IMG/VR virus record: IMGVR_UViG_3300019132_000059
Span: 1-49,771 of that record
Source: a virus
Strand: one strand, 5' to 3'
DNA length: 49,771 bases
Shown here one piece after another: positions 4,398 to 49,771 of this stretch (position 1 is its first letter; the number at the start of each line of letters is the position of its first letter). The notes below the pieces were generated by a model. That model was not told the origin of the DNA. It saw only the letters and a program-made list of their open reading frames with translations, and did not search any database. The position numbers and the translations under genes were made by a program.

Positions 4398-4430
4398 ATA
4401 AAAAAACCTCAGCCATTAAAGACTGAGGTT
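4398..4430 (-). terminator. Terminator of RNA unit 1
   Basis: AACCTCAG (4405-4412) pairs perfectly with CTGAGGTT (4423-4430) around a 10-base loop, followed on the minus strand by TTTTTTTAT. It lies 18 bases after the closing stem of the RNA unit at 4449-4511. Confidence 0.8.
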
Positions 4431-4526
4431 TTATGTATCGGACAGATACCTATGCAACGGCTGCCCATACAGGCCGCTTATGCGCATAACACCTGCACAC
4501 GATTACATAGGGTTTACTCTATCCTT
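4398..4526 (-). ncRNA. Structured small RNA, unit 1 of tandem pair (DUF3800-associated)
   Basis: On the minus strand the core 4511-4449 folds as a three-way junction. P1 is CCTATG/CATAGG; P2 is GTGTGC/GCGCAT; P3 is GCGGCC/GGCAGC (5 of 6 pairs, loop TGTATG); CGTTG links P3 to P1. A small hairpin GTATC/GATAC and an intrinsic terminator follow. A promoter-like TTCATA (4561-4556), 17 bases, TATATT (4538-4533) lies upstream, predicting a start near 4526 and an RNA of about 130 nt. Unit 2 repeats the fold with compensating base changes. It lies downstream of a DUF3800 gene; from memory, several RNA motif classes have been named after DUF3800 genes. Function is unknown. Confidence 0.6.
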
Positions 4527-4560
4527 GAAGTTAATATATGATTTACGAGCCTTTTTATGA

Positions 4561-4587
4561 AGAAAAACGACCTTTCTAAGAAGGTCG
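4561..4587 (-). terminator. Terminator of RNA unit 2
   Basis: CGACCTT (4568-4574) pairs with AAGGTCG (4581-4587) around a 6-base loop, followed on the minus strand by TTTTTCTTC. It is the first intrinsic terminator seen downstream of the DUF3800 stop codon at 4820. Confidence 0.75.
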
Positions 4588-4687
4588 AAGTGGGTGATAT
4601 ATACTGTATGCGCGAAGCCTATGCAACGACTGCCACACAGGCAGTTTATGTGTTAAATAATGTCACACGTATACATAGGTCTTACTC
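4561..4687 (-). ncRNA. Structured small RNA, unit 2 of tandem pair (DUF3800-associated)
   Basis: The core 4679-4618 (minus) has the same layout as unit 1: a conserved GAGTAA lead-in, P1 CCTATG/CATAGG, P2 GTGTG/CACAT, P3 ACTGCC/GGCAGT with loop TGTGT, and the linker CGTTG. The outer pair of P3 is A-U here and G-C in unit 1, and a P2 pair is U-A here and U-G there, so pairing is kept while sequence changes. No clear promoter lies immediately upstream (TTGAAG, 17 bases, TACTGC is weak), and no terminator separates it from the DUF3800 stop. It may therefore be the 3' untranslated end of the DUF3800 mRNA. Confidence 0.6.
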
Positions 4688-4819
4688 GCGCAGTACAAAC
4701 AACGTTTAGCAACTTCAAGTAAATACTACTAAAAAGCGATCACTTTGTAAACAGTTTAACCACATTTTATACTAGCGAGTTATTTCCATTTGAATCAAAA
4801 CTTAAACCACATATAATTG
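4688..4819. other. AT-rich non-coding stretch
   Basis: No ORF and no convincing terminator are seen between the DUF3800 stop codon and RNA unit 2. The only symmetric element is AAGCGATCACTT (4734-4745), without a loop or U-tract. Confidence 0.4.
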
Positions 4820-5488
4820 CTAACCATTTATCTTGCTTAAGTCAATAACTTTTTCAGTTCCGAAAAATGCACGCGGAAAAAGTTCCTGCTGTACGATTTT
4901 AGGTTTAATCAAGTTATAAAATTCGTTGTATCCGTATTCATATTTAGCGTAAATTGCATTTGCCACAAAATCAGCTGCCTGAATTGCGTAAGAATTTTGT
5001 GATTCAATGTATTTTACTCTAATGTTTACGTTGCAGCCCATTTCGTAGTTTAGTTTGATTTTTATGTAATCTGCAAATGAGTTAGTTGATTTAACCTTAA
5101 TGCTCCGTTTATCTAGATTGAGTGAGAGGCTTGTAATTTCTCTTCTTTTCGCCACAGGAGCAATAAGAAAATGCAACAAGTAGTTATACAGCAAGTTCTC
5201 ATCATCAAGTAAAGCCTTTTTTACGTGGTGTAGATCTGCAACAACGTATCGAATATCAATATCTTTACTCGCAATTTTTCGTAATAAATAGTCCTTTACT
5301 ACAGGGTACGCATGGCTTGCCTTAATTTCCCGCTCATTTTCAAATCTTGGAAATTTATTTTTTACCTTTAAAATGGCTTTTTCCATTACATTTTCCAGTG
5401 GTTTTGTGTTTACCGTGCTAATACAGGCAATAGTGAAAAAACGACCAGCAGTTCCGAGATTTCCTGATTCGTCAAAGTTCAAAATCAT
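4820..5488 (-). CDS. DUF3800 domain protein (left copy)
   Basis: 222 residues from the ATG at 5488, which follows GTGGGTGAT; the frame continues to 5572 without a ribosome site. The N-terminus has the family hallmark, a strand ending in DESG (D6-G9), then a G-rich turn and a second strand. EIKASH (54-59), an internal NLDKRS and a C-terminal QAADFVANAIY (170-180) complete the expected pattern of acidic residues. DUF3800 proteins are predicted to adopt an RNase H-like fold and are common in mobile elements; no activity is established that I can name. Two structured RNA units lie directly downstream on the same strand. The coding sequence is very AT-rich compared with the phage late genes, which suggests separate acquisition. 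Confidence 0.8.
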   Translation of the reverse strand: MILNFDESGNLGTAGRFFTIACISTVNTKPLENVMEKAILKVKNKFPRFENEREIKASHAYPVVKDYLLRKIASKDIDIRYVVADLHHVKKALLDDENLLYNYLLHFLIAPVAKRREITSLSLNLDKRSIKVKSTNSFADYIKIKLNYEMGCNVNIRVKYIESQNSYAIQAADFVANAIYAKYEYGYNEFYNLIKPKIVQQELFPRAFFGTEKVIDLSKING

Positions 5489-5582
5489 TTTTATCACCCA
5501 CTTATATTTCTTGCTCTCTTTTATATTACAAACATATTTAATTATATACTCAATTTCGACACTTATCCACACTATGTGGATT

Positions 5583-6538: not shown

Positions 6539-7438
6539 TTATGCACAACCTTTCAATATTACCGTTATGGTATTGCCATCCCACTCCACAGTCAGGCTGA
6601 GAGCTGCAGCGATTTCCTGAGACCAGGCGTAACCGGTGCCGTTTATGATCTGCAGGGTAGCCAACTCCTTTCCATTGAGAGTTACCGTCCTACTGATATC
6701 ACACCAGCCGACGACCTCACCCTTACCTACCGCTTCCGCCACCGCCCGCACTGGTAGCAGAGACTTGCCGTCTCTCAGGATTCCACGGACGGCCAGCAGC
6801 TTCCCGTTCACTTCGATTGCACAGGCGTTATCCACAGACGAATGTTCTTTTTGTGAATAATCCACTGATTCATAATTCAATCCGCAATATTTACAGATAG
6901 CCTTGGCAATCGCCACCGCGCACTTCTCGCGGTAGTCAGGGGTTTTGAGCAAGGCGCACTCGTCCTTGTTGGTCATGAATCCCAACTCGCAGAGTACACC
7001 AGGTATGCCGTACCGAGCTGTCTCTCGGGTGATGTGGAGGTCCGCTTGCTTCACGCCACGGTTGCGCAGACCTGTTTCCTGTATCAACCGCTGCTGGATG
7101 AGTTCTGCAAGTTGCTTCGCCAGATCGTTCGTGAACGTTTCGATGCCGTGTGCCGGGCCCCATCCGGCCCCCGCGGCGTTGGCGTGGATCGAAACCAGCA
7201 GGACGTCATATCCTCGGCGCTTCAACTCCCGTGCTAGGTTGGTGCGTTTGATTAGAGGCATGTCAGTGTCATCGGTTACCGTCAGGCGGGCATCAATCCC
7301 GACCGCCTGTAGCTTCTTCTGCAGCCGGCGGGCGACGTCGCGGTTAAATTCGTATTCCCGGAGCGATCCGTCCGGGGAGCACTTTCCCGGCGTTTCTGCC
7401 CCGTGGCCGGGGTCGATAAGAACGATACGTTTAGCCAC
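6539..7438 (-). CDS. Phage endolysin: N-acetylmuramoyl-L-alanine amidase
   Basis: 299 residues from a GTG preceded by AAGGAGG. An Amidase_3 catalytic domain (about 4-185) shows the zinc and catalytic pattern: DPGHG (H12), REYEFN (E28), SIHAN (H85) and CELGFMTN (E151). It would cut the lactyl-amide bond between muramic acid and the stem peptide. After a linker rich in S/E comes a C-terminal domain (about 205-299) with LPVRAVAEAVG, the repeat seen in copper-amine-oxidase N-like stalk domains, here probably cell-wall binding. No signal peptide is visible, so export depends on the holin encoded directly upstream (stop and GTG separated by one base). Confidence 0.9.
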   Translation of the reverse strand: MAKRIVLIDPGHGAETPGKCSPDGSLREYEFNRDVARRLQKKLQAVGIDARLTVTDDTDMPLIKRTNLARELKRRGYDVLLVSIHANAAGAGWGPAHGIETFTNDLAKQLAELIQQRLIQETGLRNRGVKQADLHITRETARYGIPGVLCELGFMTNKDECALLKTPDYREKCAVAIAKAICKYCGLNYESVDYSQKEHSSVDNACAIEVNGKLLAVRGILRDGKSLLPVRAVAEAVGKGEVVGWCDISRTVTLNGKELATLQIINGTGYAWSQEIAAALSLTVEWDGNTITVILKGCA

Positions 7439-7439
7439 T

Positions 7440-7853
7440 TCACTTCGCCTCCTTCTCAGATTGGCGGTTCTTTAACCGATCCAGCGTGCTCATCAGGAAC
7501 GGCGGCACCGGTAGCCCCAGCTTACCGCAGTTCTCCAAGATACTAATGCCCTCTGTACCGATCAAAAACAGCAGGATCGCGTCTCGGATGAATCCCTGAC
7601 TGTTCCCACTGATCACGTCGAGTTGATGCGCCACGATTACGAAGGTAAACATCGCCACCTTCCGGCCAATCCCTGCCAATGCAGTCCTGCTGTTCACTTC
7701 ACGGCGGTAAATCGCTGCTGCGAGACCGGTTAAGTAGTCAAGGACAAGAAAAATTGCAAAGGCGGCCAGGAGATGGTCCAGTCCGCCAAATAGATACGTC
7801 AAAGTTGCGATTGTTCCGCCAGTTGCAATTGTTAGCCATCCGTCGTATTTCAT
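7440..7853 (-). CDS. Phage holin (Phage_holin_4 family)
   Basis: 137 residues with about three membrane segments (10-30, 33-50, 66-105) and a charged C-terminus ending KNRQSEKEAK. The FLVLDYLTGLAAAIYRREVNSR segment is typical of the holin family that includes TcdE-type and many Firmicutes phage holins. It oligomerises in the cytoplasmic membrane and releases the amidase. GAGGAGG precedes the ATG at 7853. It stands alone upstream of the amidase after the structural-operon terminator. Confidence 0.88.
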   Translation of the reverse strand: MKYDGWLTIATGGTIATLTYLFGGLDHLLAAFAIFLVLDYLTGLAAAIYRREVNSRTALAGIGRKVAMFTFVIVAHQLDVISGNSQGFIRDAILLFLIGTEGISILENCGKLGLPVPPFLMSTLDRLKNRQSEKEAK

Positions 7854-40996: not shown

Positions 40997-41029
40997 AAAT
41001 AAAAATAATAAGTATGCGAGGTGAAACCC

Positions 41030-41380
41030 ATGTTGGCCATAAGATTGGTATCACTTAGAAAAAAACATAAGTTTACACACCAAGATATGGCAGAAAAACT
41101 TGGGATTACCCGGCAAGCATACTCCAACTATGAAAACGGAAAACGCGAACCCGATTATGATACTCTTGAAAAAATCGCAGATATTTTTAAAGTAAATATC
41201 GATTACCTACTTGGTCGCACTGATGATCCGTCGCTTGTAGACAGTAAAAACGAAACCGACGAACTTACCACCATCATGTTTCATAAGTGGGATCAGTTGG
41301 ACGAGAGAAGACGGAAACAAGCTCTGAAACTAATCGAGATCCTTGAGCAAGAGGCCGACGAAGAGAACAACAAAGGATGA
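41030..41380 (+). CDS. CI-like XRE phage repressor
   Basis: 116 residues from the ATG at 41030, eight bases after GAGG. The N-terminal XRE domain (IRLVSLRKKHKFTHQDMAEKLGITRQAYSNYENGKREPDYDTLEKIADIFKVNIDYLLGR, about 4-63) binds DNA. The C-terminal 50 residues are a helical, acidic tail rather than a LexA-type peptidase, so induction would not be by self-cleavage; the ImmA-like protease encoded downstream is the likely inactivator. It autoregulates through operator 3 in its promoter. Confidence 0.85.
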   Translation: MLAIRLVSLRKKHKFTHQDMAEKLGITRQAYSNYENGKREPDYDTLEKIADIFKVNIDYLLGRTDDPSLVDSKNETDELTTIMFHKWDQLDERRRKQALKLIEILEQEADEENNKG

Positions 41381-41425: not shown

Positions 41426-42196
41426 TTGGATTTGGTCTATTTAGATGAATCAGGAGATGTAATTTATACCGAGAGTAAAGGAACAAGGCGTTTCGTTTTA
41501 TCTGCTTTTGTCGTTCCAGAGGAGACGTGGAAGGATGTTTTTGAGGTTGTAAAAAAATTTAGATTGTACTTAAAAAGTGAATACGGCATCCCGATGTACA
41601 AAGAATTACATGCACGAGATTTTATAAACGGTAGGGGGCGCCCAAGCAAAAAGAAAGTTATCTCAAAATTTGAGAGAGTGAATATTACAAGAAACTTTCT
41701 AAAAGGACTTGCAAAGTACCTACCACAGTTAGGTGTATATGTAATTAACGTCTGTGTTGAAAATAAACCTGGGCTCAATAGTTATGATACTGCTGTTGAT
41801 CGAATGCTTAATAGGATTGAAAGGACCCTGAAGCAAAAGAACCGACGAGGACTACTTATATTCGATGAAGGAAAAGAACAATTGGTGGTCAGAATATCTC
41901 GGAAAATGCAAGTTTTTAATCCTATCCCTAGTAGATATGGTGTTTGGTTAGACGACGGAAAAACGACCAAGAATATTACAACGAACCATATCGTAGGTGA
42001 TCCATTCTTTCGCAATTCACAGGATGATTACTTTATACAAACTATTGATTTTATAGCATTTCTATTACTTAAATACATGGAACCACCCACAGAACATGTG
42101 GAGAAATACAAAATAATGGATTTATTCCCAATATTAGAACCGATTTTATACAAACCAGCTTCTAAATATCATCCACTAGGAATAGTGACAAAATAA
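41426..42196 (+). CDS. DUF3800 domain protein (right copy)
   Basis: 256 residues from a TTG after GAGGGGATC. The family DESG motif is at 7-10 (LVYLDESGDV), followed by RRFVLSAFVVPEETW, then KELHARDFINGRG (59-71), LLIFDEGKEQ in the middle and DDYFIQTIDFIAFLLLKYME near the end, the acidic positions expected for an RNase H-like fold. It follows the repressor on the same strand and is therefore probably expressed in the lysogen. It is only distantly like the copy at 4820 outside the motifs. A hairpin that can be transcribed from the opposite strand begins four bases after its stop codon. Confidence 0.8.
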   Translation: MDLVYLDESGDVIYTESKGTRRFVLSAFVVPEETWKDVFEVVKKFRLYLKSEYGIPMYKELHARDFINGRGRPSKKKVISKFERVNITRNFLKGLAKYLPQLGVYVINVCVENKPGLNSYDTAVDRMLNRIERTLKQKNRRGLLIFDEGKEQLVVRISRKMQVFNPIPSRYGVWLDDGKTTKNITTNHIVGDPFFRNSQDDYFIQTIDFIAFLLLKYMEPPTEHVEKYKIMDLFPILEPILYKPASKYHPLGIVTK

Positions 42197-43300: not shown

Positions 43301-43316
43301 ACAGGAGGGATGAGTG

Positions 43317-44474
43317 ATGAAAGGACATGTGAGGAAACGTGGTGATAAGTGGTGCTTTGTTGTGGAGCTTCCGCGGGATGAGCTCACTGGCAAGCGCCGG
43401 CAGAAGTGGTTTTCGGGGTTCAACACCAAAAAGGAGGCTCAACAGGCGCTGATCGAAAAGTTGCGTGAGATCCAGACGGGCCTCCTCGTAGACACAACGG
43501 ATATGACGGTCGAGAAATACATGAGCTACTGGCTGGAGAACTACGCAAAGGTTTCGTGCCGTCACTCAACGTATGATGTCTATCGCCAACGATCACAGCG
43601 TTACGTGATCCCGCTGATCGGCCGCGTGAAGCTGAAAGACCTCAAGACCATGCATCTGCAAAAGATGTATGCCGATCTGCTGAAGGACGGCGCCAAGTAC
43701 CGGTCTGGAGGCATATCACCGATGACTGTTCGACACATTCACGGGATGGTGCACAAGGCGTTAGAAAACGCTGTGCGCTGGCAGATCATCCCCCGGAATG
43801 TCGCTCAGATGGTGGAGCTCCCACGAGTCGAGAAAAAGGAAACGGCCGTTTTAACCAGAGAGCAGGTTCAGTGCCTTGTGGAGGCAGCAAAGGATCATGA
43901 ACTGTATATCCCGATCTTGCTGGCTGTCACAACCGGCATGCGGTATGCAGAGATTTTTGGCCTTGCGTGGAAGGATATTGATCTGGACAAACGTTTTATC
44001 CATGTGCGCCAGCAGTTGGTCAGAACCAAAGGAGAGTTTCGTCTGACCGAGCCCAAAACCAAGAGCAGCGAAAGAGTGATCTCCCTTCCGGAAAGTTTGG
44101 TCGCTCCTCTCCGTCGCCACAAAGCCGAACAGGCACAGCAGAAACTTCTGATCGGGCCTACATATAACCCGGATGGTCTGGTCTGTTGCCGCCCTGAAGA
44201 CGGTCAACCCTATTCGGCCACACCAGTGCGGCGGAAGTTTGATTCGCTTCTGGATAAAGCCGGTCTCCCGCGCATCCGCATCCATGATCTGCGGCACACT
44301 GTGGCCACGCTACTTCTGGAGCAAGGCGTCCACCCCAAGGTGGTTTCCGAACTGCTTGGTCATGCCAATATCGGCATCACTCTGGACCGGTATAGCCATG
44401 TTTCGATTACGATGCAAAAAGAGGCGGTTGACTCCCTGGAGGCGGCCATTTTCACCTCCAAAAGTGCACTTTAG
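43317..44474 (+). CDS. int: Tyrosine-type phage integrase
   Basis: 385 residues from the ATG at 43317, eight bases after AGGAGG. An AP2-like arm-binding domain (about 1-55: HVRKRGDKWCFVVELPRD), a core-binding domain (about 60-170) and a catalytic domain with R209 (TTGMRYAE), K249 (PKTKSSER), H323-R326 (HDLRH), H349 (LGHANI) and Y359 (LDRYSH). All catalytic residues are present. It integrates the phage by site-specific recombination. Convergent with the Tad operon to the right, its 3' end lies close to the element boundary. Confidence 0.95.
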   Translation: MKGHVRKRGDKWCFVVELPRDELTGKRRQKWFSGFNTKKEAQQALIEKLREIQTGLLVDTTDMTVEKYMSYWLENYAKVSCRHSTYDVYRQRSQRYVIPLIGRVKLKDLKTMHLQKMYADLLKDGAKYRSGGISPMTVRHIHGMVHKALENAVRWQIIPRNVAQMVELPRVEKKETAVLTREQVQCLVEAAKDHELYIPILLAVTTGMRYAEIFGLAWKDIDLDKRFIHVRQQLVRTKGEFRLTEPKTKSSERVISLPESLVAPLRRHKAEQAQQKLLIGPTYNPDGLVCCRPEDGQPYSATPVRRKFDSLLDKAGLPRIRIHDLRHTVATLLLEQGVHPKVVSELLGHANIGITLDRYSHVSITMQKEAVDSLEAAIFTSKSAL

Positions 44475-44780: not shown

Positions 44781-45620
44781 CTATACGAGATATTTGTCCA
44801 GAATCTCGGTCAGGAGCTTGTACCAGGGAAACATGGCGACCAACAACCCCATGTAAAAAGCAGGGTAAACAATCACACTGTACCCGATCCCCAGCGATTT
44901 GATTTTTTTGCGATGACGAAACATCCTGCGATTGTCGACAGCCCACTCCAACCGCTGCATCGTCGTTGCCATTTGACTTTCGTTCAACTGCTCGATAGTC
45001 CGCATGCTGGATACGAGAATAATCGCGTCATCCACGCCCAATTTTTGCTTGAATGCTTCCAAGGCTTCGTCCGGGTCTTTATTCCACTCGGACAAAGTGG
45101 GGATATACTCCTTTAATTTCCGGGTGGGTCTGGCCGCCTTGGCCATCGCGTTGTACACGGGAACGTGGTTTTCCAGCAAATTCACGTACCGATTGATAAA
45201 GCGGGCAATGTCGTTGCTCAACACTTCTTCCCGATATCCCGCCCACGCTTTCAGCAAGAAGTAAGGAAGCAAAAATCCGACGGCTGATGAAAGCATAAGT
45301 GAAAGGAATGGGAAATCACCCTCACCGGAAAACAGAGCAACCAGTACGTGGAGCAGCACCATCACACTGCCGCTGACCAGTTGGGTAAAGATCCATTCTG
45401 CTTTTCCCCATCCAAACGGCCGGCCTGCCCGCTTCAATAACGATGCCCACTTTGGCTCTTCCTCGGAAGCCATCACCTTTTCCCAAGTCTGCCACCAACG
45501 TTGGGACACGAATAACCGATGGCGTGCCCGCAACACAATCGTTCCCACCACCGTGAAGAAAACCACGAACATGCACAGTGAGCCCATACCGATCAGTACG
45601 TATAACATCATCAACATCAT
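44781..45620 (-). CDS. tadC: TadC-like inner-membrane pilus assembly protein
   Basis: 279 residues from the ATG at 45620, eight bases after GGAGG and overlapping the tadB stop; the frame is open far upstream. A type II secretion F-type domain is in the C-terminal half (NDIARFINRYVNLLENHVPVYNAMAKAARPTRKL; VDDAIILVSSMRTIEQLNESQMATTMQRLEWAV), with membrane helices near the start, middle and end. It pairs with TadB as the pilus platform. Confidence 0.75.
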   Translation of the reverse strand: MMLMMLYVLIGMGSLCMFVVFFTVVGTIVLRARHRLFVSQRWWQTWEKVMASEEEPKWASLLKRAGRPFGWGKAEWIFTQLVSGSVMVLLHVLVALFSGEGDFPFLSLMLSSAVGFLLPYFLLKAWAGYREEVLSNDIARFINRYVNLLENHVPVYNAMAKAARPTRKLKEYIPTLSEWNKDPDEALEAFKQKLGVDDAIILVSSMRTIEQLNESQMATTMQRLEWAVDNRRMFRHRKKIKSLGIGYSVIVYPAFYMGLLVAMFPWYKLLTEILDKYLV

Positions 45621-46519
45621 TACCGATACCTCCGTCCCCAAATGAACGCCAACAGGATGGACAAACACCACACCGCACTTGCCAGTGAAAGAATCGCCTG
45701 ACCGTCGGCCGTAAAAAAGTAGAGACGGTAGGAATCCTTTAACAGCGTTTGATTGTACGGTATCAGACAGAGACAGATGGCGATTACCAAAAGCAAACTG
45801 ATCCAAATCGCGTAAATCTCACTATCCCTTTCCTCTTTTTCGTCCTGTTGGACAAACATCTCATTGGTCAAACGGTTGAGGGACGTTTGTATATCCTCCG
45901 TCTCCCCTTCCAAGCCGCTTGCCACATAGGTAGCAAAGTCATAGGCCCAGGGATGGTGCAGCCGTTCTGCAAACTCTTCCACTGCCGCAACCAAGCTGCC
46001 ACCGTCTGTGAGCGTGTTGTTGAGCAGAATCAATTCCGGCAGTAGTTCTTTCGGGCACTCGGCAACCATTTCCCGAAAGGTTAAGATGATGTTTTTTCGA
46101 CTGCTGTAATATCTGGAGAAGAGTTCCACGAAGCGACAAAACGATTGGACCTTTTGATTGATGCGTACCGTGTACCTGGCATACAGAAGGAGTGTCGGCA
46201 GCAGGATGAACAGGAAAAAAAGCGAGAGTGAGACGATCAGGTTTTGCAACAATACTCCTGAGAGGAAACCGGCGACGGCTCCGATAAGGGAGAACAAAAT
46301 GTAACTCTCCGGCTGCCCCCCTGCAACTGTGCACCATTCCGCATACCGCTCGTATAACATTCTCCTGGAGGGGTTTTGCAAGAGTTTTTCCCGCAAGGTC
46401 CACACGGTTTTTGGGAAAAAAACTTTTGGGGTTGACCAAATTTTCTGAACGTACAAGCCCAGGAACAAAAAGCCGGCCAATAGACAAACGGACATGGGCA
46501 GCAGAATCATCATCTTCAT
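45620..46519 (-). CDS. tadB: TadB-like inner-membrane pilus assembly protein
   Basis: 299 residues from the ATG at 46519, overlapping the tadA stop (ATGA). An N-terminal helix, two central helices (about 80-125), an F-domain-like cytoplasmic part (SFCRFVELFSRYYSSRKNIILTFREMVAECPKELLPELILLNN) and two C-terminal helices give the usual TadB layout. It forms the membrane platform for the Tad secretion ATPase. Confidence 0.75.
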   Translation of the reverse strand: MKMMILLPMSVCLLAGFLFLGLYVQKIWSTPKVFFPKTVWTLREKLLQNPSRRMLYERYAEWCTVAGGQPESYILFSLIGAVAGFLSGVLLQNLIVSLSLFFLFILLPTLLLYARYTVRINQKVQSFCRFVELFSRYYSSRKNIILTFREMVAECPKELLPELILLNNTLTDGGSLVAAVEEFAERLHHPWAYDFATYVASGLEGETEDIQTSLNRLTNEMFVQQDEKEERDSEIYAIWISLLLVIAICLCLIPYNQTLLKDSYRLYFFTADGQAILSLASAVWCLSILLAFIWGRRYR

Positions 46520-47865
46520 ACCTGCCGTCCTATATCGGTCACACGCAAGCTTCGCAATACATCCACATCCGCCTGGCCCAGGCTGCACATGTATTCTGCC
46601 AGATGCCCCTCCAGTTTCCTGCCCGTCCATTCGTACTCACCCGTAGCCAGATTGCGCTGGACCAGCGGCACGGACTCCACTCTTTGCATGGTGTCGTTCC
46701 ATTCCGTTACATGGATTGCGTCAATGAAACGATGTCCGTTGCGCCGATACTGAAGGGAGTTGATGAAATTCACAGCCCGACTAATTCGCTCCTGCGTTAA
46801 TTCAATACTCCTGCCTCCATACTGATACACCAAATCAGTCAGATCATTTAACGCTTTGTGAGGGAAGCGTTCGTGCAAAGCTGCAATGGTTGCGTCTGTT
46901 CCCCGAATACCGGCATTCACGAACTGATAGGCCTCGATCGGTTCCCGAATTTCACCGATCAATATGGTGTTGGCCGTTGTCCGGTACATGTCTTTGAAGC
47001 AATGACCCAGCTCAATGCCAATCTCCTCGACGTTTTGCAGTTCAATCACCTCTCCCGGCCACATATCGCCAAACCGCATCTCATGTTCGCTTTCATATAT
47101 GGTGATATAGTCGGAGGAAGGGTCTTTCAACTTTAACATGCAAATCATGAGTGTCGTTTTTCCCGCAGCCATGGGACCAATCACCAACACATTGCTGCGG
47201 CCGTATACTTGCTGTTCCAGCAGCAGCTGCACCTTTTCATCAAATGTCGGAAGGTCTTGTGTGCGCAGTTGGTCCAGGGAAAACGATCGCGTGGTAAAGC
47301 GTCTTACCAGTACCGTTGGCACCCTTGAATAGGGAAAGGTAAACATGGTAAGCCGAGCCTTTAACGTATCCAGGTACCCGCTTAACCGCGGTTTTTTTTC
47401 ATTGAAGGAAAGTCCCGCTGTGTTTGTTAATTTTTGCTGCAAGATCTCTACCTCTTGCCACGTAGGCTTATACTCCAAAAACTTTTTTACCCCTTGTTCC
47501 AAATAAGCAACGTTTTTCCCTGCAGAAATGCGCACCTCCTCAATCCATGGGGAAAGGTGGAGCACAACATCCAAAATCCCCCATCCATAGGTGGAAAATG
47601 CAATGCCTTCATATCCGTTTACACAGGGAAGGATTTGCTCCGTAACGGGCCGTTTCACCACCTCCTCAAAGTAGTGTTGCAATCGAACAATTATGTGATT
47701 GTGACTTTCCCGATCCCCATTTTCCGCCATTGTGAGAATGCGCTGCATCTCCAGCTTTTCTTCCCTCGTCGTGCCAAAGTTGTTCAGGTAGTCACGAGCT
47801 GCCTGTTTGAATTCTTCTGCCGTTGTCAGTTGTAAGGACTTTCGATCTGAGGCAATGTTTTTCAT
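46516..47865 (-). CDS. tadA: TadA/CpaF-type pilus assembly ATPase
   Basis: 449 residues. Walker A is GPMAAGKT (230-237), followed by the acidic YITIYESEHEM region and ILIGEIREP (301-309), then HERFPHKALNDL, the His-box-like segment. The N-terminal part binds the platform (RISAGKNVAYLEQGVKKF). It powers Flp pilus extrusion. It overlaps both neighbours by 4 bp in an operon with cpaB, cpaE, tadB and tadC. Confidence 0.85.
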   Translation of the reverse strand: MKNIASDRKSLQLTTAEEFKQAARDYLNNFGTTREEKLEMQRILTMAENGDRESHNHIIVRLQHYFEEVVKRPVTEQILPCVNGYEGIAFSTYGWGILDVVLHLSPWIEEVRISAGKNVAYLEQGVKKFLEYKPTWQEVEILQQKLTNTAGLSFNEKKPRLSGYLDTLKARLTMFTFPYSRVPTVLVRRFTTRSFSLDQLRTQDLPTFDEKVQLLLEQQVYGRSNVLVIGPMAAGKTTLMICMLKLKDPSSDYITIYESEHEMRFGDMWPGEVIELQNVEEIGIELGHCFKDMYRTTANTILIGEIREPIEAYQFVNAGIRGTDATIAALHERFPHKALNDLTDLVYQYGGRSIELTQERISRAVNFINSLQYRRNGHRFIDAIHVTEWNDTMQRVESVPLVQRNLATGEYEWTGRKLEGHLAEYMCSLGQADVDVLRSLRVTDIGRQV

Positions 47866-48980
47866 CCGTATATGACCGCTCCTCGTTTCCGTTTATCGGC
47901 ATCTGCTATCTCTTGCAGGCTGTTGATATACTGCTTGGGTGGAAAAAACTCTTCCACCAGCGCGCTGTGACTGCGATGAGATTGAATAAGACGATTTTCG
48001 GAAATACGCGGTACGACACCATAGACGGATAACCCCTCTCCGATCCGATGGGAGTTTCCTTTGTCAAAGTGACTAACCAAAACTTCATGTTGAATCCCTT
48101 GACCAAGCCAACGGGTAATCCATGCTTTTGCACTCTCCACGCTAAACGGATCCGCCCGAACGAAAAACAGATTGCGATCCGCTGATAACAAGAGACGATG
48201 AAGCGCTTCAGTTTCGGGAAAACAATACCCCCAATCGAGATAGACGTAATCAAATTGCTGGCGCAAAGCTTCTATCAGATTGTACAGTTCATTGCTCTTC
48301 CATTTGATCGTCCCGTTGGCGTAATACAGATTTTCCACGCCGCTGCTCTGTTTAAAAACCGCTGCCCAATTGCGTTTCACTGCCGAAGCTTTATCCAGCA
48401 AATCGGAACGGTATAAAGCCAACTGATGCTGATGCAGACGAAAAAAACGGGTCAGATCCGGTTTTTCACCATTCATGTCGATAACCGCAATTCGTTTGTC
48501 CGGATTTCGCTTGGCGAGGAGAATGGGATAATTGATGCAGAACGTCGTAATACCCGATGCACCGTAGCTCAGAAGTGCGTAAACCAAACCCGTGCCTTGC
48601 AGGATTGACTCCTGCTGCGTCGCTGCGATTCCCAGAATCATCCCGATCCGACTGCGAAGCTCATCATGTGTGGCAGCTGCAGGCAATACGTACGTGTTTG
48701 GAAACCGTGCCTGTTCTATCACCGTGTGGATGAGCGGTTCATCTTTGCATATCGGTGCAATGAGTACTGCCACCCGTTCGTCAAGGCAAGCACGGACGGA
48801 AGGAATCCATTCCCAAGGCGGTGTCGTGAACATTTCGGAAAACACAACAACTGCCTCCGGTTGATAGATCGATGCCAATCGAAAAAAGTCTTCATCATGT
48901 TCTGCTGCCAGCGCTTCGCACCCGTTTGGCAAAAAGGAATGGACCAGAGATTTCATCGGGTAGCAAACCAATATCTTCAT
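47862..48980 (-). CDS. tadZ: TadZ/CpaE-like pilus localisation protein
   Basis: 372 residues; AGGAGG before the ATG. A receiver-like N-terminal domain (about 1-115) is followed by a MinD/ParA-like ATPase fold (YALLSYGASGITTFCINYPILLAKRNPDKRIAVIDMNGEKPDLTRFF, about 133-178; YVYLDWGYCFPETEAL, about 262-277). The P-loop reads GASGITT and lacks the usual lysines, so ATP use is doubtful and a scaffolding role is more likely. It is placed between CpaB and TadA as in other Tad loci. Confidence 0.75.
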   Translation of the reverse strand: MKILVCYPMKSLVHSFLPNGCEALAAEHDEDFFRLASIYQPEAVVVFSEMFTTPPWEWIPSVRACLDERVAVLIAPICKDEPLIHTVIEQARFPNTYVLPAAATHDELRSRIGMILGIAATQQESILQGTGLVYALLSYGASGITTFCINYPILLAKRNPDKRIAVIDMNGEKPDLTRFFRLHQHQLALYRSDLLDKASAVKRNWAAVFKQSSGVENLYYANGTIKWKSNELYNLIEALRQQFDYVYLDWGYCFPETEALHRLLLSADRNLFFVRADPFSVESAKAWITRWLGQGIQHEVLVSHFDKGNSHRIGEGLSVYGVVPRISENRLIQSHRSHSALVEEFFPPKQYINSLQEIADADKRKRGAVIYG

Positions 48981-49771
48981 TTTTTGTGCACCTCCTCCTG
49001 TACAAGCACGTGACCAATTTGTATCGTTCCGTAGTTCATTGCCTCACTTAAGGCAGTAAACTGTTCGTCGGTCAGATTGAATCCAATATAAGCAGGCAGT
49101 GAACTCGGCTGCGATCGATAGTCCCGATACCGCTTCTCCCCATTTGCGTATTTCTTCGCTTCTGAACCCTTGAATACAGCGGAATCCATCTGTTCAGCCG
49201 GTGGCAGCAGGTTGGGCTTCAGGGTATAAATTTCAACCCCGTTGTTGTCTTTCACAGTTACGAGCTGACTGATAAACAACGGATCCGCTGTATGATTGCT
49301 CTTGTGAAAATGTGCGGGCGCCGGCATGGACTGCAGCTCCGTCAGCGGCTTGTACTTGACCCACACCTTGACCTTGTCTCCCTTGCGAAGCTCCGTGATC
49401 GGCATGATCGAGTGTAGAGGGAACTCATATCTCGCTTCCCCTATTTGAGGCAACAACTGGGTTTCCGAAAGTTTTTCTTTGAGCAGCTGCTCCCCCTCAT
49501 ACAATGGCTGCATGCTTCTTTTTCCCAGCACACTCTCCAACGTCTGTAATGCACCGGGGAAAATTTCATCTGCCTCCTCCTGAACGAGCACTACATCGTC
49601 CCTGGTAATGGGCTCGTACGGGGAAATCTCTTTGCCTTTCGCTACTTTTACGACAGGCGCAAATAATCGTTCAGAAGCGAGTGCATCCAGATAGTAAGTT
49701 GCAGCGTAAAAACTTGCTGCCGCCATCAGCAGCGATAGGAAGCCAATCGTTAACAGTGTCTGTTTCTTCAT
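48977..49771 (-). CDS. cpaB: CpaB-like Flp pilus assembly protein (SAF domain)
   Basis: 264 residues; the ATG is exactly at the window end, so upstream sequence and ribosome site are unseen. An N-terminal membrane anchor (about 7-25) is followed by a SAF domain: VVKVAKGKEISPYEPITRDDVVLVQ (about 40-64) and LGKRSMQPLYEGEQLLKEKL (about 82-101). A second beta region (RKGDKVKVWVKYKPL) follows. It is the periplasmic or cell-wall-side part of Tad pilus assembly and overlaps tadZ by 4 bp. Confidence 0.8.
   Translation of the reverse strand: MKKQTLLTIGFLSLLMAAASFYAATYYLDALASERLFAPVVKVAKGKEISPYEPITRDDVVLVQEEADEIFPGALQTLESVLGKRSMQPLYEGEQLLKEKLSETQLLPQIGEARYEFPLHSIMPITELRKGDKVKVWVKYKPLTELQSMPAPAHFHKSNHTADPLFISQLVTVKDNNGVEIYTLKPNLLPPAEQMDSAVFKGSEAKKYANGEKRYRDYRSQPSSLPAYIGFNLTDEQFTALSEAMNYGTIQIGHVLVQEEVHKK

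Follow-up and report, generated by a model that had tools for sequence, protein, structure and literature searches.

Structured RNAs beside DUF3800 genes were previously known from computation, and the closest described family is DUF3800-I (Rfam RF02969), whose members lie directly beside a DUF3800 gene and on the same strand, with a 5' hairpin before helix P1 and a terminator straight after the fold. Within the DUF3800 literature covered in part here, with the primary motif paper outside its scope, no tested function of such RNAs was found. For the protein, an RNase H fold has already been reported and DUF3800 domains have been placed in some Cas12a2-type loci, with a proposed role in interference or crRNA handling (PMC10910872), and DUF3800 is described as an accessory family of certain CRISPR loci of types V and VI (PMC12669027). 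A further point of comparison is formed by the type III toxin-antitoxin systems ToxIN and AvcID, in which the gene of a nuclease or another enzyme adjoins that of a structured RNA on phages and plasmids (PMC5086642, PMC10511110), the enzyme ToxN being an endoribonuclease (PMC5086642).

The window analysed in this study, that is, the whole stretch of 49,771 bp, is a virus record with an integrase gene at 43314-44474 and, on the minus strand, a module of one DUF3800 gene and two RNA units (Table 1). Exact att repeats were searched for at the prophage ends and not found. Tad/Flp pilus-like genes, recognised by eye from the translations, flank the prophage at 44781-49771 (-), and a TadB-like gene (L062 15209-16081, also by eye from translations) flanks a prophage that carries one of the orphan RNAs described below. 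A second DUF3800 gene of another subfamily is situated at 41426-42196 (+) of the window, adjoining a repressor-like gene at 41021-41380; an RNA set was looked for near this second gene and none was found.

Table 1. Positions of the features of the module in the window and of the orphan RNAs in their own loci
Feature	Position	Strand	Evidence or remark
DUF3800 gene, 222 aa, ATG start	4820-5488	(-)	PF12686 7e-13, 50 bits
RNA copy 1, DUF3800-proximal: P0, GUAA internal loop, P1, three-way junction (P2, UAA, P3)	4609-4692	(-)	R1 81.4 bits; fold z -4.1; covariation
RNA copy 2, distal, architecture as copy 1	4440-4524	(-)	R1 77.4 bits; fold z -3.1; RF02969 sub-threshold, 21.0 bits
Intrinsic terminator of copy 1, then TTTTTCTT	4568-4587	(-)	folded
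Intrinsic terminator of copy 2, then TTTATTT	4403-4432	(-)	folded, z -5.8
Predicted sigma-70-type promoter of copy 1, TTTACA-17-TAGTAT	4723-4751	(-)	match at this single site within chance
Predicted promoter of copy 2, TTCATA-17-TATATT	4533-4561	(-)	weak match alone; predicted +1 about at first P0 base
12-nt segment UAUCACCCACUU 3' of copy 1	4588-4599	(-)	complement of DUF3800 mRNA ribosome-binding region, about 5494-5505
Prophage endolysin	6539-7438	(-)	PHROGs 2.6e-48; same strand, precedes DUF3800-RNA module
Prophage holin	7440-7853	(-)	PHROGs 2.9e-25; same strand, precedes DUF3800-RNA module
Orphan RNAs	L020 1501-1584; L050 1501-1584; L051 1501-1576		genomes without detectable DUF3800

The first-pass annotation of this DNA had described two cores of 62-63 nt (4449-4511 and 4618-4679) with a P1/P2/P3 fold, each followed by a terminator on the minus strand, and had pointed out that the copies differ by A-U against G-C in P3 and by U-A against U-G in P2. 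The fold, the terminators and the differences between the copies are all as described, and the core coordinates are correct, but the true units are longer, 84-85 nt. An outer helix P0, absent from that description, continues each P1 across an internal loop containing GUAA, and reads GGAUAG...CUGUCC in the distal and UGCGCG...CGCGCA in the proximal copy; a G.A mismatch within P3 of the distal copy had likewise gone unmentioned. The fold z of the cores is -2.4 (copy 1) and -1.8 (copy 2), compared with the values of Table 1 for the full units, and none of 200 shuffles folds as well as the full unit of either copy. One unit folds about as well when read as a plus-strand RNA; the terminators, the predicted promoters and the gene order agree on the minus strand, which is therefore preferred. 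Both promoter-like sequences, with the window taken alone, are matches within chance. In several relatives the region just upstream of copy 1 likewise has a TTTACA, with a -10-like hexamer 16-18 nt further on, and in the staphylococcal type TTGACT-17-TATAAT precedes the RNA and lies within the last part of the DUF3800 reading frame.

In a MAFFT alignment of 13 RNAs, a consensus of 24 pairs is observed, with double-sided changes in 21 of them, and 90% of the cells pair, compared with 28-44% when the partners are slid. A covariance model, R1, widened the set to 26 RNAs, in which 92.6% of the pair cells pair (28-43% in slid controls), 22 of the 24 pairs change on both sides, no shuffle reaches any of the measures, and all five pairs of P0 show covariation. 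As the alignment of 26 RNAs is fitted to the R1 model, the MAFFT alignment is the cleaner test. Since the pairs covary in relatives, a chance origin of the units is excluded.

The idea, first drawn from the window alone, that these RNAs are linked to DUF3800 genes is strongly supported, as a search with the RNA model only found members beside such genes, and the covariance search that had been proposed as a check did return further members near them. Relatives of the DUF3800 protein that are 54-74% identical are encoded in Paenibacillus, Alkalicoccus and Sporolactobacillus, on a Paenibacillus plasmid and on viral contigs, and more distant ones on a Ligilactobacillus plasmid, in streptococcal satellite phages and on staphylococcal-type phage contigs, one of which also contains a member of the Rfam family SprC; the genes of these relatives are followed by RNAs built in the same way. 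Bacilli genomes, viral contigs, phages, satellites and plasmids yielded further RNAs adjoining DUF3800 genes. Among 399 Bacilli genomes the RNA-only search picked out four, three of which have a DUF3800 gene of the clade immediately beside the RNA, and a protein-only search of the same genomes gave strong hits in exactly these three (G002, G105 and G241). Of 297 Paenibacillaceae genomes, four (G002, G105, G451 and G494) were hit strongly in the protein search and all four were recovered by the RNA search, which was positive in seven genomes; as 11-15 candidates were scored per genome in the genome-wide RNA search, RNA counts are to be read as lower bounds. Because R1 was built from relatives that include G002 and the genome matching L004, it is G105, G241 and G494 that count as independent finds. 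Four whole genomes have the RNA solely beside the DUF3800 gene, and not one of roughly 16 complete clade loci, a count that leaves out three viral contigs ending at the DUF3800 gene, has the gene without the RNA. Judged from sequence, the link between RNA and nuclease is well supported.

The order of the module varies, with the RNA downstream of DUF3800 in Bacillota and upstream in gammaproteobacteria, where the RNA matches are weaker (L029, L030, L071 and L073). The divergence of protein and RNA is strongly correlated over all loci (r 0.88), but significance is lost within the close clade (p 0.19), so that this co-divergence mostly reflects taxonomy. DNA-pattern matches in L042 and L043 were rejected as chance. 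In Fusobacterium vincentii, a promoter with perfect TTGACA and TATAAT hexamers and a similarly built RNA can be seen by eye at L072, about 2200-2280, after a DUF3800 gene; this RNA is below the R1 threshold and has no Rfam match. On an Acinetobacter pittii plasmid (L071 1459-3291) the DUF3800 gene and a gene for a reverse transcriptase face each other across 283 nt, and on the Ligilactobacillus plasmid three salivarius-1 RNAs (RF03030; L005 2275-2728, minus strand) are found just upstream of the DUF3800-RNA module.

The Rfam scan that had been suggested for both units places neither in a family at threshold, so that membership of an existing family is ruled out at this level; it does name DUF3800-I as the nearest, with 21.0 bits against a gathering score of 44.2 bits, which is unreached in the window and in relatives of the window type. 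Sub-threshold matches to PyrR, GibS and Spot 42 rest mainly on the terminator hairpin, make no genomic sense and were set aside. Copy 2 aligns over its full length to the RF02969 model, and a viral RNA (L030) matches both R1 and RF02969. The two models each find four of the 399 Bacilli genomes, with no genome in common. The core common to both types consists of a P1 of 5-6 bp, a small internal loop, an inner helix of about 4 bp, P2, a UAA linker and P3 with a loop of the UGUGU/UGUAA type. The window type differs in its longer P1, in often having two diverged copies, and in P0 across the GUAA internal loop, which replaces the 5' hairpin of DUF3800-I: the bases 5' of P1 form P0 together with the 3' side, and not a 5' hairpin. 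Compared with the families of Rfam 15, and going by sequence and predicted pairing, the window RNAs are a DUF3800-I variant outside RF02969, as they fall below the Rfam threshold and have P0 in place of the 5' hairpin.

The DUF3800 protein of the window belongs to PF12686, its score exceeding the curated cut-off of 21 bits. In a Foldseek comparison of its AlphaFold2 model (pLDDT 89.8) with the PDB, the best 17 matches are all RNase HII/H2, with 1eke on top (E 2.3e-6, TM about 0.5). In alignments, the conservation of D6-E7 (in the motif DESG), E54, D126 and D173 extends to distant DUF3800 proteins, single exceptions aside, and these five positions are candidate active-site residues. On the strength of the model, the fold can confidently be called RNase HII-like, and the protein is predicted to be a metal-dependent nuclease; the specific likeness to RNase HII, as modelled, is new here. 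RNase HII carries a DEAG motif, and as the nearest solved fold it has this motif at the position of the D-E of DESG, with 15% identity over the aligned part. DUF3800 differs from RNase HII in having a further conserved element, E54-x-K, and an RNA partner of its own. The protein is not assigned to any defence family in PADLOC.

Two copies of the RNA are present in eight loci. Copies within a locus are 57% alike, hardly different from the 55% of copy 1 against copy 2 across loci, and one clade (local support 0.967) unites every copy 2 sequence with two orphan RNAs. A recent tandem duplication is ruled out by these two observations; the duplication is older than the dispersal among these genera. 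Of the two, copy 1 is more conserved than copy 2 (71% vs. 58%), and they probably have different duties.

In three of the seven RNA-positive Paenibacillaceae genomes (G581, G138 and G589) the RNA is present and a PF12686 match is found nowhere in the genome, a small count from genomes of unstated completeness, in which a diverged DUF3800 could escape the Pfam profile. One orphan RNA (L051/L062) lies directly after a phage endolysin, another (L060) in a prophage-like region, a few kilobases past lysis genes, and the third (L061), which looks decayed, in ordinary chromosomal DNA close to a type I toxin-like RNA. Two of the three orphans retain 21 of the 24 pairs. The orphans could be remnants, as for instance L020, which retains 18. 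Beside this RNA, at L020 1615-1900, sub-threshold BsrG-like and RatA-like matches are seen, perhaps a type I toxin-antitoxin pair.

The three RNA-only genomes suggest a restraining and not a guiding action of the RNAs on the nuclease, and an inhibitor is favoured over an activator or guide because RNA without protein exists while protein without RNA is unseen. The reading that I tentatively put forward, which may well be right but falls somewhat short of probable, is that of a nuclease-RNA module of mobile elements in which the RNA is an antitoxin-like inhibitor of DUF3800. The RNAs would be transcribed from their own predicted promoters, ended by their own predicted terminators, and most likely be bound by the DUF3800 protein in a complex; such a ribonucleoprotein is suggested by the strongly conserved fold and conserved unpaired bases that adjoin a nuclease gene. 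Recognition may proceed via the conserved unpaired GUAA and UAA bases, in the P0/P1 internal loop and the three-way junction, and the RNA would thereby occupy and restrain the nuclease, which would be freed when the RNA is lost or modified during infection or upon loss of the plasmid or prophage. The role could be superinfection exclusion or prophage maintenance. Superinfection exclusion, defence or maintenance of the element would fit the usual site of the module just past lysis genes (endolysin and holin in the window, L007, L008, L009, L022 and L063, and endolysin in L065) and its additional presence on satellites and plasmids.

Alternatively, the units might be ordinary terminators, repeats or functionless chance hairpins, and terminators do adjoin both of them, but the compensatory changes in 22 of the 24 pairs across several genera and phyla, and the return of RNA-only searches to DUF3800 genes, leave this explanation a practically negligible probability. 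The RNA might also act chiefly on the expression of DUF3800, for instance as an antisense to its ribosome-binding site, as the tail of copy 1 is a perfect 12-nt complement of that region in the window and 11 nt are complementary in L024. However, most loci lack the complement, exchanging tails between loci does not weaken the pairing significantly (permutation p = 0.06), and conservation resides in the structured fold and not in the tail; as it is not conserved across loci, the 12-nt complement is of doubtful meaning. Antisense control of this site was therefore rejected, and regulation of DUF3800 as the main role of the RNA is quite improbable.

The RNA as an activating cofactor or guide, a scaffold with perhaps the P2 loop as a short guide to a nucleic-acid target, would accord with the tight linkage to an RNase H-fold nuclease, with the P2 loop being the most variable unpaired part, and with the Cas12a2-type loci mentioned above. 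This loop is about 11 nt long, though, identical in L008 and L044 and only modestly different between L019 and L027, and neither an array nor a spacer-like segment was found. The guide suggested by the first-pass annotation is not supported in this respect: in CRISPR and OMEGA guide systems a variable, target-matching segment is attached to a conserved scaffold, whereas here the 11-nt loop alone varies and is not hypervariable. A guide role is disfavoured as there is no variable target-like segment and, with RNAs also occurring in genomes without detectable DUF3800, a cofactor or guide is unlikely. The RNA could further be processed or degraded by the nuclease as its substrate, or be part of a ribonucleoprotein with another role, such as phage regulation or packaging; the two copies with a predicted terminator on each and the phage-borne module speak for this, but the double-stranded, strongly conserved fold with its conserved unpaired bases looks like a binding platform and nothing points to cleavage sites, which makes this option distinctly unlikely.

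Should the RNA indeed be an antitoxin-like inhibitor, it is conceivable, if doubtful, that the module represents a new type of RNA-inhibited nuclease, consisting of an RNase HII-like toxin and one or two diverged three-way-junction RNAs in prophages, satellites and plasmids, and that phages with the RNA only carry an antidote against the nucleases of rivals. What this locus adds is a strongly covarying branch of RNAs below the Rfam threshold, a nuclease fold predicted with confidence in which candidate residues of the active site can be named, two RNA copies that can be studied apart, and orphans that occur naturally, so that the question whether the RNA restrains, activates or guides becomes directly testable. 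The RNA would also provide Rfam and phage annotation with a model for a module that is now labelled as of unknown function (PHROG 9243).

In type III systems the antitoxin is a tandem array of short repeats that precedes the toxin gene and shares one promoter with it. The DUF3800 RNA, in contrast, consists of one or two diverged units and not of an array of near-identical short repeats, and in Bacillota it follows the gene, with a predicted promoter and terminator for each unit; this order, unlike that of repeats followed by toxin, is a point against the antitoxin reading. ToxN is not known to have the RNase H fold, whereas the nuclease here is RNase HII-like. In type III systems the RNA may occur without the toxin, but not the toxin without the RNA, and the same asymmetry is observed here, in small numbers, with three orphan RNAs and no complete clade locus that lacks the RNA. 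If the DUF3800 RNA inhibits its protein, the two systems would be alike in their working.
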